A stretch of DNA of 42,992 nt from Bacteroidetes bacterium GWA2_32_17 (GTDB lineage Bacteria; Bacteroidota; Bacteroidia; Bacteroidales; GWA2-32-17): contig MENF01000198.1 in the NCBI GenBank assembly GCA_001769035.1, positions 1 through 42,992 on the forward strand, given 5' to 3'. A program made the translations under genes and the position numbers. This document shows, one piece after another, positions 15,575-21,127 of this stretch. A model generated the notes under the pieces. It saw nothing but the letters and a program-made list of their open reading frames with translations. It ran no database searches and was not told the DNA's origin. The stretch's first letter is position 1; each line of letters starts with the position of its first letter.

Positions 15575-15624
15575 TAGTTTTGGATGGCTTGGATTTATAC
15601 ATTATAAATTGGTATAGAGGAATA

Positions 15625-15754
15625 GGGTATAGAGGTATAGGGAATTTTCCGAAAGTTAACGGCGCCATGGTCTTTGCAAACTTTCGGAAAGTTACAATGA
15701 CGGCTAATTGCTTATACCATATACCTTTATACCTTATACCCATAAGTTCTGAAT
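15625..15754. repeat. 130-bp structured core repeat, copy 2
   Basis: Same sequence and orientation as copy 1, with two differences, starting 50 bp after the stop of the TPR gene. One extra GGTATAGAGGAATA unit precedes it at 15611-15624. The outer 21-bp terminal repeats found around copies 1 and 3 are missing here. Open frames through it on either strand are repeat translations, not genes. Confidence 0.9.
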
Positions 15755-15767
15755 CCGATATCGGATT
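15752..15767. repeat. 16-bp perfect palindrome AATCCGATATCGGATT
   Basis: A perfect palindrome at the junction of core copy 2 and the 3' end of the BtuG-like gene, where the TPR and B12 transcription units converge. The identical 16 bp recur at 29502-29517. There is no T-run after it, so a classic terminator is unlikely. Confidence 0.7.
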
Positions 15768-15775
15768 TAGAAACG

Positions 15776-16819
15776 TTAATTTCCCATTATTTCAATCCAA
15801 CCCGGATTTACACCAGCGGTATAAGACTTTATTAAATTCCCATTCAAATCAAATATTAGAGTTTCTCCATTTGCTACATAGTTTTTTGCATCGGTAACAA
15901 TTATTTCATTTGTTAAAGAATTAATTGCCAATCCATAAAAGTTTTTTGAATGAGCAGTAATTAAAGGAATATTTGGTAATAAATTGTCGGTTATTGACAT
16001 TCTGTATATATTGTTATTTATATAATAGAGAGTATCTCCTGCCCTATTTGCACATAAACGTACTGGCGACATTGAAATATCACTAAATGTAAAATGCTTA
16101 ATTTCAGTCAAATCGGAGCTATTCAAACACCATAGCGAAGCATTTTCCTGTCCATAAGAACTGCCTGTAAAGCCACCATCGCAAAGCACCCAAATATTGT
16201 TATTCTTATCATTTACAATGCTATTTGGTTGTTTACCAACAATTGCAGAATCTAATTTATTATCTGTAAGTATATCAATTGAATAAACCATATTTCCATA
16301 CGACCATGTTGTTACATATACTTTACCATTTAACAAAATCATTTTTTCAGAGGTATGTCCAATATTAACAAAGCCAACTATTGAATTATTTTGCAAATTA
16401 ATTTTAGTAATTCTTGTATCATATAAATCTGATACATAAGCAAGTGTATCGTTAATAATTAACATCTGACGGGGTGAACCTAAGCCAGTTATTTTTCCGG
16501 AATATTTCATATCGCTTAAATTAACAATATAAATAATACCCGAATTATTTACAACAATATATCCTTTGTTATTATGGATAGTCATTGAATAAGCTACATC
16601 GCCAAGAGGAACAGCATTTGCTTCATAAAATATATCCTGATGGAATTTATTATTTGTTTCATCAAAAAATGAAAGCGAAGAGTTTCCCCACGTATAATTA
16701 CCTTCGTTTACAACAAAAAAACCTGAATTATTTGTATTAACAGAAATTGGTTCGTCGGTTTTTTTCTTACACGAAAAAACAATTATAAATAACAATGTAT
16801 ATAATAAATATTTTCTCAT
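15776..16819 (-). CDS. BtuG-like YncE-type beta-propeller surface lipoprotein
   Basis: The 347-residue protein has a lipoprotein signal with the acylated Cys at 17 (FIIVFSCKKK). The rest looks like a seven-bladed YncE/DUF5074-type beta-propeller: repeated GYIVVNNSG, AYVSDLYDTRITKIN, VGKQPNSIVNDKNNNIWVLCDGG and similar blades. In Bacteroides, BtuG proteins of this fold bind cobalamin on the outer surface and pair with the BtuB channel. Here the gene overlaps the TonB-receptor stop by 4 bp and is the last gene of a riboswitch-controlled operon, which supports the same role. Lineage-specific YncE proteins for other ligands remain possible. Confidence 0.82.
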   Translation of the reverse strand: MRKYLLYTLLFIIVFSCKKKTDEPISVNTNNSGFFVVNEGNYTWGNSSLSFFDETNNKFHQDIFYEANAVPLGDVAYSMTIHNNKGYIVVNNSGIIYIVNLSDMKYSGKITGLGSPRQMLIINDTLAYVSDLYDTRITKINLQNNSIVGFVNIGHTSEKMILLNGKVYVTTWSYGNMVYSIDILTDNKLDSAIVGKQPNSIVNDKNNNIWVLCDGGFTGSSYGQENASLWCLNSSDLTEIKHFTFSDISMSPVRLCANRAGDTLYYINNNIYRMSITDNLLPNIPLITAHSKNFYGLAINSLTNEIIVTDAKNYVANGETLIFDLNGNLIKSYTAGVNPGWIEIMGN

Positions 16820-18735
16820 ATTTTAAACGATAAAACAATTGAAGCATTTCGCATAGGCATTGGTCGCCAAAGTATCAACTGGTAATTAGTATTAAATAAA
16901 TTATTTAATTTAAACTCAACCGATAATTTTGATTTTATAATTTTAACAAAGCTCATAATAGACAAATTTGTAAGCCACAATGGTTCTAACAAATGTGAAT
17001 AACTTCCATAATTCGAGGTTAAGCGAGTACCGTAAATCAACTCATCGAAACAAAACTCATAGTTTAAATACCTTATTCTTAATGAAGCAGTTCCATCATG
17101 AATTGGCAAATACGGAAGTTGTTCGCTTACAAATTCTTTATCTTTTGCTTTAGCAATATTAAAAGTATATGCACCATGTAAATTAAAAATAAATTTATTG
17201 ACTTTTAAGTTACACATTGTTTTTATTTGCAAACCTTTAGAAATAACATTTCGAACATTATTGGGCGACCAATATCCAAATTGAGTTGGTTGCCATAATA
17301 TCCAGTTAGTTACATTATTGTAAAAAAATTCTAATTCAGTTTCATTGTTTATCTTTTGATATTTTACACTTAAATCGCTTTGCCATGCATTTTCGGGTTT
17401 TAAATAAATATTTCCACCAGGAATATAATACAAAGCGTTTAAATTAGGGAAATTTGTATTATGCGATAACGAAGTTTTTATTACAATATCGTGCATTGGC
17501 AACAGTTTAAAAAAGACAGATGGAATTATTGCTGGTTCAAAATTTTGATTTTTAACAAATCTTGACAATAACGTAACATTATACCAATTACCTTTATTAA
17601 AATCTAAATTAACCATTGCATCAATAACATTATTTTTTACATTATACCCAACTTCCGACTTCTGTTCGTAAATATTAACATTCCGAAAATCATATTTTAT
17701 TGAAGAGTTTAAATGAACGTTATTTGTTACACAAAAATTTGTGGACACAGAAGAGAAATACGATTTTTCGTTGCTTTTTGAATTAATATAAGTTACTAAG
17801 TTTGTTCCGGAGTAATGTTCCAAATTATAATAAAGTTCACTTACAGATACTCCTTCACTTAAAGTTAAATCAAAGCATTTTCTTTGATAATTCCACGTCC
17901 CGGAAATTCGTGAAGATTTATCGCCTTGTTTTTCTATATGCTGAGACGAAAAAACATTAGTCATTATTTGAGGAATTTGACGTTCAGCATTGGCTTGCCA
18001 ATAATGTAGCGAAAATTCGTTTTTGTTTTTTTTATAAATTAAATCCTGAAATATATTTATTCTTTTGAAATCTGCACTTTGTTGAGTCATTTCCTGAGTA
18101 GGCAAAACAGCATTATTAAAATATTTAAAATCGTTATTTGACTTATGGTAAGATAATTGAGTAATTGATTTTAAATACTTTTTGCCAATAGATACTCCCA
18201 AATATGAATTATACAAACCAAAACTGCCTACTTCTTGTTTAATTTCGATAAAAGGCGATAACTTATTAAAATTGGGCGAATTGAAACTAACCTGTCCGCC
18301 AAATGCACCGCTTGAAGTAATTAAACTATTTGCCCCATAAAACAGATTCAAATTGTTATAAGGTAATGCAGGGATAAGTGAAAAATCAATCTGACCGTTC
18401 ATTGCAGAATTAATTTGCATTCCATTCCAATCAACTTTTGTATGCGAAGCGTCAGTTCCACGAAATGAAACAGTTGTTAAACTTCCATCACCAAAAGTTT
18501 TAACATTTAACCCAGATTCAAATCTTAATATTTCTCCAGTATTTGCGCTAACACTATGCATTAATCGAAAACTATCAATTTGGTGTTTATTAATATTTGG
18601 AGAATTTGAATAAAGCTCTTTAACTTCCACTTCCTTTAAATGAATAGTATCTATTTGCGATTTTAAAAATAAAGGGAAAGTCAACAATATACATTGTAAA
18701 ATAAATATTTTTAGTATGTTATTAATGTAAATCAT
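16816..18735 (-). CDS. btuB: BtuB-like TonB-dependent outer-membrane receptor
   Basis: The 639-residue protein has a signal peptide (about 1-27), a plug domain with ILRFESGLNVKTFGDGSLTTVSFRG and GGQVSF, and a long beta-barrel rich in alternating aromatic strands, ending in Ile after Phe-Lys. The size matches BtuB-type corrinoid receptors rather than the ~1000-residue SusC type. There is no N-terminal carboxypeptidase-like domain. It starts at TAATG, overlapping the stop of the upstream T9SS protein, and its own stop overlaps the BtuG-like start. The cobalamin assignment comes from the riboswitch at the operon head and the BtuG-like partner. Confidence 0.85.
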   Translation of the reverse strand: MIYINNILKIFILQCILLTFPLFLKSQIDTIHLKEVEVKELYSNSPNINKHQIDSFRLMHSVSANTGEILRFESGLNVKTFGDGSLTTVSFRGTDASHTKVDWNGMQINSAMNGQIDFSLIPALPYNNLNLFYGANSLITSSGAFGGQVSFNSPNFNKLSPFIEIKQEVGSFGLYNSYLGVSIGKKYLKSITQLSYHKSNNDFKYFNNAVLPTQEMTQQSADFKRINIFQDLIYKKNKNEFSLHYWQANAERQIPQIMTNVFSSQHIEKQGDKSSRISGTWNYQRKCFDLTLSEGVSVSELYYNLEHYSGTNLVTYINSKSNEKSYFSSVSTNFCVTNNVHLNSSIKYDFRNVNIYEQKSEVGYNVKNNVIDAMVNLDFNKGNWYNVTLLSRFVKNQNFEPAIIPSVFFKLLPMHDIVIKTSLSHNTNFPNLNALYYIPGGNIYLKPENAWQSDLSVKYQKINNETELEFFYNNVTNWILWQPTQFGYWSPNNVRNVISKGLQIKTMCNLKVNKFIFNLHGAYTFNIAKAKDKEFVSEQLPYLPIHDGTASLRIRYLNYEFCFDELIYGTRLTSNYGSYSHLLEPLWLTNLSIMSFVKIIKSKLSVEFKLNNLFNTNYQLILWRPMPMRNASIVLSFKI

Positions 18736-19694
18736 TAATATTTAATAATATTGGAAGTGAAATATTTATTTTCAAAATAAACTTTTAAAACATATACGCC
18801 CGGTTGCCATTCGTTTGTAAAAATATTAATATGATTGAAAAAACTTCCAGTTACTAATTTTTTACCATAAATATCAATTATTTCAAAATTACAAAATCCA
18901 TTAAAATAAATATTTACAAAATCTTTAACAGGATTCGGATAAATACTTACATTGTTCAATTTGTTATTGTAAATGTTTTGTGTTTTTTCATTTATTACTC
19001 CTATTGCATCTAAATCGAAGCCGCTTGTAAAAAATGGAGTTGGAAACGGGTCATTTATTTTATTCCCGTCAGAATCGTAAGTTGTATAATTATCTGATAT
19101 ACAACCAACAACATCAACAACTCTAACAAAAGTTACAGAGTCAATATTTAAAAATGGTTTTCCATTGAGTTCCTGCAAATCGAATGGTGTTCCAAATAAA
19201 GCTTTATATTTTCCTGCAAGGTTATTAATTTTAGCAGGTTCTAAAATGCCAAAAGTTGTAATTTGCGAATCAGTTTGTGTAAGCGATACAGAAGCGAAAC
19301 GTTCCCAATGAATACTATCGCTGCTAACTTCAACAAAAGCCAATTCGATGAAATTTCCATCAAAAGAATTTTCAAAAACAGCTAAATCGAATCCGTTTCC
19401 ATTTGAAATTGGCGGATTAAAAGTAAGCACTGCACTTCCGGCATCACCTATACTGACTGTAATATTATCAGCTTTGCCGATTGCATCATTTTCAAAACCG
19501 TTGGAAACAAGACTATCGCTATTTGATGAAATATCAACAAAACCGCGTTGCACTTTACACGATTTTGCCCAGTTTACAATTATACTACTATCGGCAAATA
19601 TTGCTGTGCTGCCAAGCAAACCAGCAGCAGGCGGATATTGTGCAAAGCCAAATGTTTTAATAAAAAAGAAAAATATGATTATAAAATATTTCAT
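18735..19694 (-). CDS. T9SS-sorted surface protein of the cobalamin operon
   Basis: The 319-residue protein has a signal peptide (1-18, cleaved near FAQ) and a beta-rich domain with FDLAVFENSFDGNFIELAFV and DSVTFVRVVDVVG, found in surface proteins near btuB in Bacteroidota. It ends in a T9SS type A sorting domain (about 245-319: VSIYPNPVKDFVNI, FEIIDIYGKK, PGVYVLKVYF). It should therefore be exported across the outer membrane and attached to the cell surface. It lies downstream of the riboswitch and is coupled to btuB through TAATG. A corrinoid-capture or processing role is inferred from context only. Confidence 0.82.
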   Translation of the reverse strand: MKYFIIIFFFFIKTFGFAQYPPAAGLLGSTAIFADSSIIVNWAKSCKVQRGFVDISSNSDSLVSNGFENDAIGKADNITVSIGDAGSAVLTFNPPISNGNGFDLAVFENSFDGNFIELAFVEVSSDSIHWERFASVSLTQTDSQITTFGILEPAKINNLAGKYKALFGTPFDLQELNGKPFLNIDSVTFVRVVDVVGCISDNYTTYDSDGNKINDPFPTPFFTSGFDLDAIGVINEKTQNIYNNKLNNVSIYPNPVKDFVNIYFNGFCNFEIIDIYGKKLVTGSFFNHINIFTNEWQPGVYVLKVYFENKYFTSNIIKY

Positions 19695-19849
19695 TAATTT
19701 TTATTATAAGTGAATGGTTAAAATATTAAATTTTATTTTTTTATGACCTCACCCCCAGCCCCTCTCCACTTGGAGAGGGGATTAAGGGGAGAGGTGGTCG
19801 TGGCTATTAAATAGTAAAAATATGGCTTCAGCCAAAATTCAATATTTTA
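19695..19849. repeat. Hairpin-bearing spacer inside the cobalamin operon
   Basis: CCCCTCTCCA (19759-19768) pairs perfectly with TGGAGAGGGG (19771-19780), and CCTCACCCCC / GAGGTGG lie outside, as in the 1039-1175 family. TGGCT/AGCCA forms a second small hairpin at 19823-19834. It lies between two operon genes, so it may lower expression of the downstream genes or mark a processing site. Confidence 0.6.
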
Positions 19850-20827
19850 TTAATTTTTAATGATTTTTTTATTAATCTCAACACCATCAACATTCATTTT
19901 AATAAAATAAATTCCTGAATTAAAATCAGTTAAATCTATTGAACTAACTTTCCCATGCTTCGAATAAATAACTTCTCCCGATAAATTATAGATTTTTAAA
20001 TTATTAACCACTTTATTAAAATAAACTTGAGCGGTTGTTGGATTGGGATAAAAATCAAGTAAGTCGTTTACATTTTCAGTAACATTTGTTATAAAATTGC
20101 AGTTTAAGTTATCAAAACAAAAAAATGCGGGCGTATTCATTCCATAAGCACCTGTATCTGAAGATGATAAAACGAAGTCTAATTTTGTAATCTGCCCCAA
20201 AGTTGTTAAATTAACTTCTGTCCAATCTTTAATTATATAATCCATTAAACTATCGGTATAACTGTAATCGGCTAAATAAAAATGCACAGTATCGGTAACT
20301 AAAGTATCGTTATATCCGATAATGTCGAGTTTAAACCAATCGGGGTCATTTCCGCTAATTCCGCCAAATTTTTTTGAAAAAGAATCGCCATTTCTTATTG
20401 TTAAAGCAGTATAAGCCGAATTATTTATAAAAATTGATTGAGGAATAGCAGGAACTGTAAATGAAACTTCGGTAGGAATAACTGCATTAGTGTTCCAATC
20501 AATTGAATTAAATGAAACTCCAAAAACTGTAGAATTAATTAACTGAAGTCCTGCAAAACAACTATACATATTGTTAAAATCCTGTAAACTGTCATTTAAT
20601 TTATTTGAATACGAAAAACCATTCCAGGCAGTAATCCCACCGCCATAATCAATAAAGTTGTTGGGGAAATGAGCATAAATTCCCGAATTAAACCCACCCG
20701 AAAAATCGGAGCCATTCCAGAACGAATCGGGTGGTAGCGATAAATCTTCAAAATTAATAACTTGTGATTTAGATGAGTAAATCAAGCCTAACGAAAGGCT
20801 AACGCATAAGAACATTTTTTTTAACAT
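19850..20827 (-). CDS. DUF4465-type T9SS-sorted protein, first gene of the cobalamin operon
   Basis: The 325-residue protein has a signal peptide (about 1-21). A DUF4465-like domain follows: INFEDLSLPPDSFWNGSDFSG, then FPNNFIDYGGGITAWNGFSYSN and the late TDTVHFYLADYSYTDS. The last ~75 residues are a T9SS type A sorting domain (LLDFYPNPTTAQVYFN, LKIYNLSGEVIY, SGIYFIKM). It is the first gene after the B12 riboswitch, so its translation is probably the directly controlled step. Secreted proteins linked to B12 loci bind corrinoids in some Bacteroidota; whether this one does is inferred, not seen. Confidence 0.85.
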   Translation of the reverse strand: MLKKMFLCVSLSLGLIYSSKSQVINFEDLSLPPDSFWNGSDFSGGFNSGIYAHFPNNFIDYGGGITAWNGFSYSNKLNDSLQDFNNMYSCFAGLQLINSTVFGVSFNSIDWNTNAVIPTEVSFTVPAIPQSIFINNSAYTALTIRNGDSFSKKFGGISGNDPDWFKLDIIGYNDTLVTDTVHFYLADYSYTDSLMDYIIKDWTEVNLTTLGQITKLDFVLSSSDTGAYGMNTPAFFCFDNLNCNFITNVTENVNDLLDFYPNPTTAQVYFNKVVNNLKIYNLSGEVIYSKHGKVSSIDLTDFNSGIYFIKMNVDGVEINKKIIKN

Positions 20828-20884
20828 AATAAAAAGTTTTAATAAATTAAATAAATTAACATTAAAACTTTCGTAAAAAATGAT

Positions 20885-21111
20885 TTGGTAAGAAACCGGT
20901 AATTCCCACCAAGCCTTTATCCCGAAAGCTTTGAAAAATTTAGTTTTAGGCAGGTCTTCTGGCTTGTTCTATTTTCGGTGAGCCTTCCCATTCAATTAAA
21001 ATGAACAGTGGCGTGGTATTCCGAAAAAAATAAGAACTCACAGCAGCGGGTACTGCTCACGATTTTAACGTGATTCCCTTGCAATTTTTTCTATCGAAAA
21101 AATTTACCTTT
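20885..21111 (-). ncRNA. Cobalamin (AdoCbl-type) riboswitch
   Basis: Reading the minus strand from about 21111, the conserved B12-riboswitch blocks appear in order: CAAGGGAATCACG, then GTGAGCAGTACCCGCTGCTGTGA, then CCACGCCACTG, then GGGAAGGCTCACC, then GCCAGAAGACCTGCC (about 20948-20963). Downstream, TTGGT (near 20912-20908) can pair with ACCAA (20889-20885) around GGGAATTACCGG, a plausible expression platform before the start codon at 20827. The RNA lies in the leader of the T9SS/BtuB/BtuG-like operon, so B12 should repress it. Block boundaries are read by eye. Confidence 0.93.
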
Positions 21112-21119
21112 AACTGGGA

Positions 21120-21127
21120 CAAAAATA
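21120..21127 (-). promoter_or_regulatory. -7 promoter box of the cobalamin operon
   Basis: On the minus strand TATTTTTG fits TAnnTTTG and ends 8 bp before the first riboswitch block, which places the transcription start at the riboswitch 5' end. A -33 box is not clear in the T-rich upstream sequence. Confidence 0.5.

Follow-up and report, generated by a model that had tools for sequence, protein, structure and literature searches.

We have analysed contig MENF01000198.1 of Bacteroidetes bacterium GWA2_32_17 (Bacteroidales), a stretch of 42,992 nt that is referred to below as the window. The minus strand at positions 15776-21127 probably carries a B12-repressed corrinoid-scavenging operon in which two capture proteins, one of the BtuJ type (DUF4465) and one of 319 amino acids (aa) belonging to the BtuH superfamily (called P319 here), are sorted by the type IX secretion system (T9SS). 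The gene order, the riboswitch, the domains, the sorting tails, the T9SS genes and the remote homology of P319 to BtuH can be read directly from the sequence. An initial annotation had proposed a B12-uptake operon with two T9SS-routed candidate corrinoid binders, and this proposal is supported: DUF4465 is a family with published binders, and P319 is a remote homologue of BtuH and is found in B12 loci. The DUF4465 half and the B12 operon are known biology, differing in the anchor; the novelty lies in identifying the 319-aa family and in its consistent routing to the T9SS.

The B12 operon and its type IX sorting tails

There is a cobalamin riboswitch aptamer (RF00174) at positions 20932-21126, which scores 97.5 bits against the covariance model (gathering score 31.5; E 2.8e-23) and is the single copy in the whole 4.77-Mb genome. 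It is followed on the same strand by the genes for the DUF4465 protein (325 aa, 19850-20827), P319 (18735-19694), a BtuB-like TonB-dependent receptor with a TonB plug and barrel (639 aa, 16816-18735) and a BtuG-like lipoprotein with a DUF5074/YncE-type beta-propeller (347 aa, 15776-16819). The RF00174 and domain matches bear out the consecutive same-strand order from promoter box to YncE-type lipoprotein that had been annotated, as well as the overlapping stops and starts of the last three genes (TAATG at 18735 and 4 nt at 16816-16819).

The DUF4465 protein has a signal peptide (by inspection), matches Pfam PF14717 at E 4e-41 (141.6 bits against a cut-off of 25 bits) and aligns with PDB 9HMU and 9I2L. 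With the DUF4465/BtuJ family (PDB 9FCT, 9I2L and 9HMU) it shares PF14717 and an HI loop beginning GMNTPA, and it differs in its T9SS tail and in one HI-loop residue discussed below. B12 binding has been published for DUF4465 proteins of Bacteroides thetaiotaomicron (PMC12751083) and six further divergent bacteria (PMC13398666), with eight divergent members now known to bind, and DUF4465 genes often adjoin BtuB and PF16819 propellers (PMC13398666). The TonB receptor has TIGR01779 (TonB-B12) as its best NCBIfam match (E 1.2e-20), at 73.7 bits and so below the cut-off of 599.7. The product of the last gene matches the DUF5074 propeller at E 5.8e-23 and has a lipobox, VFSC, by inspection. Elsewhere, the genome encodes many proteins with B12-binding domains and a single FecCD permease, the gene for which is on a different contig from the operon.

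Both accessory proteins end in a TIGR04183/PF18962 type A sorting tail that scores above the cut-off (residues 260-323 of the DUF4465 protein and 251-317 of P319), and the genome encodes SprA, as well as PorV beside the PorU sortase. These tails and genes support the annotated routing of both proteins through the T9SS, which we state as a prediction. Of the 61 full-length P319 proteins, 59 have a Por_Secre_tail, as have 31 of the 35 DUF4465 proteins of P319 loci, and one of 77 proteins has a simple lipobox pattern. Additionally, there are true Bacteroidales BtuH-domain proteins with T9SS-like tails, among them L190:646-1854 (above the Pfam cut-off) and L182:676-1833 (just under it), so that T9SS sorting of BtuH appears to occur outside P319 too. 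A literature search found no paper joining the T9SS with cobalamin or with BtuH, P319 or DUF4465 proteins, although others may exist outside its scope. In a flavobacterial transcriptome paper, the passage on the riboswitch names the TonB receptor only (PMC9723704).

The accessory B12-binding proteins of gut Bacteroides had been described as lipoproteins, and this holds for BtuJ and BtuH of B. thetaiotaomicron. Locus 2 of that species (BtuJ2-BtuH2-BtuL-BtuG2-BtuB2) also has the riboswitch first, then BtuJ and a BtuH-type protein, followed by BtuG and BtuB. In contrast with the lipoproteins of that locus, their counterparts in GWA2_32_17 are T9SS-tailed, and the operon lacks BtuL, BtuF, BtuC and BtuD. 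A B. thetaiotaomicron-like locus (L212) starts with the riboswitch, BtuJ and BtuH, has a 728-aa lipoprotein where BtuL would stand, and continues with BtuG and BtuB. P319 occupies the place of BtuH, directly after BtuJ. The possibility that P319 is BtuL was rejected because the 728-aa lipoprotein is not matched by the P319 hidden Markov model (HMM).

Type A cargo of the T9SS may be cell-bound or released. The two proteins could thus form a secreted corrinoid trap, siderophore-like or carried on vesicles, that is shared between cells; this would be a variant in location of the explanation given above. BtuJ of B. thetaiotaomicron acts on vesicles (PMC12751083). Against this, a gene for the PorU sortase is present in the genome, and no sequence feature of the DUF4465 protein or P319 separates release from attachment. 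We regard release as possible but the less probable outcome.

P319 and BtuH

In Pfam, NCBIfam and the PDB sequences, P319 matched nothing but its sorting tail, apart from weak noise; there was no other domain and no PDB relative. The core (residues 21-238) is strongly conserved among homologues, of which about 25 true ones were found among 60 relatives searched, with a mean identity of 58% over the core columns of 24 sequences. An AlphaFold model of P319 has a predicted local distance difference test score (pLDDT) of 85.9 (five models span 73.9-85.9) and a predicted template modelling score of 0.88. Among PDB folds, the closest to it is the B12-binding domain at the C terminus of BtuH2 (7biz_A; residues 318-592), with a Z score of 12.0 and a root mean square deviation of 3.8 over 162 aligned residues. 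The second is the BtuH domain of BtuG1/BtuGH (8blw_B, Z 10.4).

Profile comparison points the same way and connects P319 and BtuH reciprocally. Using hhalign, P319 matched a BtuH profile, built from homologues collected in Bacteroidales, at a probability of 94% (E 1.4e-7, 50 columns), compared with at most 1.1% for unrelated operon families. There is also a distant branch of P319 in other classes of the phylum, which matches P319 at 99.7-99.9% and BtuH at 97% (E 6e-11) with hhalign, and the BtuH domain 8blw_B at E 7.5e-5. When the BtuH HMM was run against all open reading frames (ORFs) of about 105 P319 loci, P319 proteins were the only matches at E <1e-5.

The conserved residues are consistent with this relationship. 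In BtuH2, Asn399 contacts the B12 phosphate and Phe401 the lower ligand (PMC8941943), and these residues align with the N and F of a FENSF motif in P319. All of the 24 + 18 sequences have the Asn, and the Phe is nearly invariant in P319. P319 and the BtuH2 C-terminal domain (PDB 7BIZ) share the motif order VSLG-GG ... DF-x-x-NxF ... V-x-D, including the nucleotide-loop Asn and Phe, at about 12% identity and with corrin-contact loops that cannot be aligned. Unlike BtuH2, P319 has no PKD domains and has a T9SS tail in place of the lipid anchor.

BtuH has been described as a gut Bacteroidetes protein without known structural homologues (PMC8941943). On the sequence evidence, P319 is best described as a remote BtuH homologue, a T9SS-sorted branch of the BtuH superfamily rather than BtuH itself; we file it as a separate branch because it has a T9SS tail and no lipobox. 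The Leptospira LIC_13355 family (NF033170) matches 11 of 24 P319 cores (best E 1.5e-7). It is a spirochaete lipoprotein, unlike the T9SS-tailed P319, and its remote relationship to the P319 core means that a corrinoid-related role could be asked of the Leptospira family too.

P319 loci across Bacteroidota

A scan of GTDB genomes gave about 580 candidate P319 stretches, from which 80 loci were kept. These were chosen by similarity to P319 and not by context, some lie on incomplete contigs, and the set overlaps the earlier set of relatives (at least in L057). Riboswitches were sought on the same strand by nhmmer, using a model made from 22 such riboswitches. BtuB is a neighbour in 63 of the 80 loci, DUF5074 in 57 and DUF4465 in 24. 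There is an adjacent same-strand riboswitch in 62 of the 80, which agrees with the co-occurrence of the family with B12 riboswitches across Bacteroidota that the initial annotation had put forward for checking, and 72 have either a riboswitch or BtuB/DUF5074. P319 is fused to DUF4465 in three loci (L048, L049 and L067). In the distant branch, 21 of 22 loci adjoin BtuB, DUF5074 or both. One P319 homologue, L044:8278-9276, is located beside a cytochrome-c-assembly-like ORF, and a riboswitch, BtuB and DUF4465 are all missing from its vicinity.

P319 (core matches at E 2e-50 or better) is present in 55 of 198 Bacteroidales genomes, DUF4465 in 85 and BtuH in 47, one BtuH match having been left out because it is a P319 gene. 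P319 and DUF4465 are found together in 40 genomes (odds ratio 5.8), in 32 of them within 4 kb, and both P319 and BtuH co-occur with DUF4465. P319 and BtuH themselves are rarely found together, in 4 of the 198 genomes (odds ratio 0.18, p 6e-4).

There is a further domain in some of these loci. In nine of the 80, an upstream ORF carries it in T9SS-tailed proteins, and none of the nine has DUF4465; the probability that the nine and the 24 DUF4465 loci would share no member by chance is about 0.03 by our own arithmetic. The domain model has a pLDDT of 95.5 and resembles the beta domains of human intrinsic factor, haptocorrin and transcobalamin (Z 11.4-12.7) and RUMGNA_00854 (Z 10.8), with unrelated folds at 7.1 or below. 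Pfam DUF4430 matches one of 13 members (E 9.7e-7), and a search of the PDB sequences matched only the sorting tail. This intrinsic-factor-like domain is found in B12 riboswitch operons at L086:4853-5653, L050:8485-9315, L041:2041-2469 and L105:5182-5979, among others. It is sometimes in tandem, as in the protein L086:4718-5932, and sometimes fused to the propeller or to P319. It is absent from the window. We lean slightly towards a wider conclusion, that T9SS-bearing Bacteroidota display a corrinoid-capture coat of at least three folds (BtuJ, BtuH-superfamily and intrinsic-factor-like, often fused) ahead of BtuB/BtuG, and that the BtuH superfamily extends far beyond gut Bacteroides.

Alternatives and proposed role

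Several observations weigh against corrinoid capture by the two proteins. In the window DUF4465 protein the HI loop reads GMNTPAFF, so that NTPAF stands in place of NTPAY and the key Tyr, which contacts B12 and is 97% conserved (PMC13398666), is replaced by Phe. Two congeners have the same Phe, as do at least four further loci in which the operon is otherwise normal. B12 binding by this protein is therefore likely, judging from its sequence, but not certain. For P319, the sequence alignment with BtuH spans only about 50-85 columns. The BtuH2 corrin contacts His476, Tyr510, Trp511 and Trp577 belong to the BtuH motifs YHTQDYYYP, GYW and GWLGE, which fall outside the regions that can be aligned with P319. 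A Foldseek search with the P319 model gave no match below E 0.001, the top one being at 1.3e-3. Eight of the 80 loci, and L044, have no riboswitch or BtuB/DUF5074 in the flanks read, and the statistics for complementarity between P319 and BtuH ignore phylogeny.

The P319 beta-sandwich also resembles the carbohydrate-binding CBM32 and discoidin domains (Z up to 9.8), and BtuL of B. thetaiotaomicron is an example of a protein from an operon of this kind that does not bind B12 (PMC12751083). P319 could accordingly be a carbohydrate-binding or matrix-anchoring accessory that holds the uptake complex or vesicles, and not a corrinoid binder. However, the BtuH B12-binding domain ranks above every CBM32 in both structure aligners, and on this basis the description of P319 as a plain CBM32 was rejected. 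Among the CBM32 matches of P319 the best is AlyQ, and BtuH itself is reported to be modestly AlyQ-like (PMC8941943). The nucleotide-loop Asn/Phe motif is conserved in P319, and the BtuL-position orthologue is the 728-aa lipoprotein described above, which gave no match to the P319 HMM. We consider the accessory role unlikely.

The remaining features concern the layout of the operon. There is a promoter-like box, TATTTTTG, of the Bacteroidota TAnnTTTG -7 type on the minus strand at the riboswitch start (21120-21127). With 52 occurrences of the motif on the operon strand across the window, the box counts as weak evidence by itself. A gap of 155 nt separates the DUF4465 and P319 genes and contains a palindromic repeat element (19740-19814, strand not assigned) with 19 matches in the genome. 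In four congeners the two genes abut or overlap and there is no gap. The repeat lacks a following T-run in the direction of the operon, and was for this reason rejected as an operon terminator. Short, nearly palindromic repeats, such as AACTTTCGGAAAGTT, are also present at 15600-15760, between the end of the operon and an upstream plus-strand TPR-like gene. The gap with its 19-copy repeat and the NTPAF motif might point to relic genes or to a recent rearrangement, with the repeat uncoupling DUF4465 from P319 and the Phe marking lost binding, but this is very improbable given that none of the four ORFs is broken, that congeners conserve them all, that the Phe recurs in normal operons and that no T-run follows the repeat.

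Taken together, the data favour corrinoid capture by a T9SS counterpart of the gut Bacteroides riboswitch-BtuJ-BtuH-(BtuL)-BtuG-BtuB operon. The riboswitch would permit expression of both capture proteins at low intracellular B12. BtuJ and the BtuH-like protein would cross the outer membrane through the SprA-type T9SS translocon, and PorU would remove their tails, leaving both proteins attached at the surface or released. BtuJ and P319 would both bind corrinoid, which would then be handed to the surface lipoprotein BtuG and imported through the TonB receptor BtuB.

The T9SS is known mostly for enzymes and adhesins, and this operon suggests that it may also deliver vitamin-capture proteins. A large unnamed family, mostly from environmental Bacteroidota, and its distant branch in other classes are now placed near BtuH, and the P319 family gains a testable function. 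Culturable organisms (Aequorivita, Winogradskyella and Brumimicrobium) carry P319, so that lipid-anchored and T9SS-sorted B12 capture can be compared in culturable hosts.

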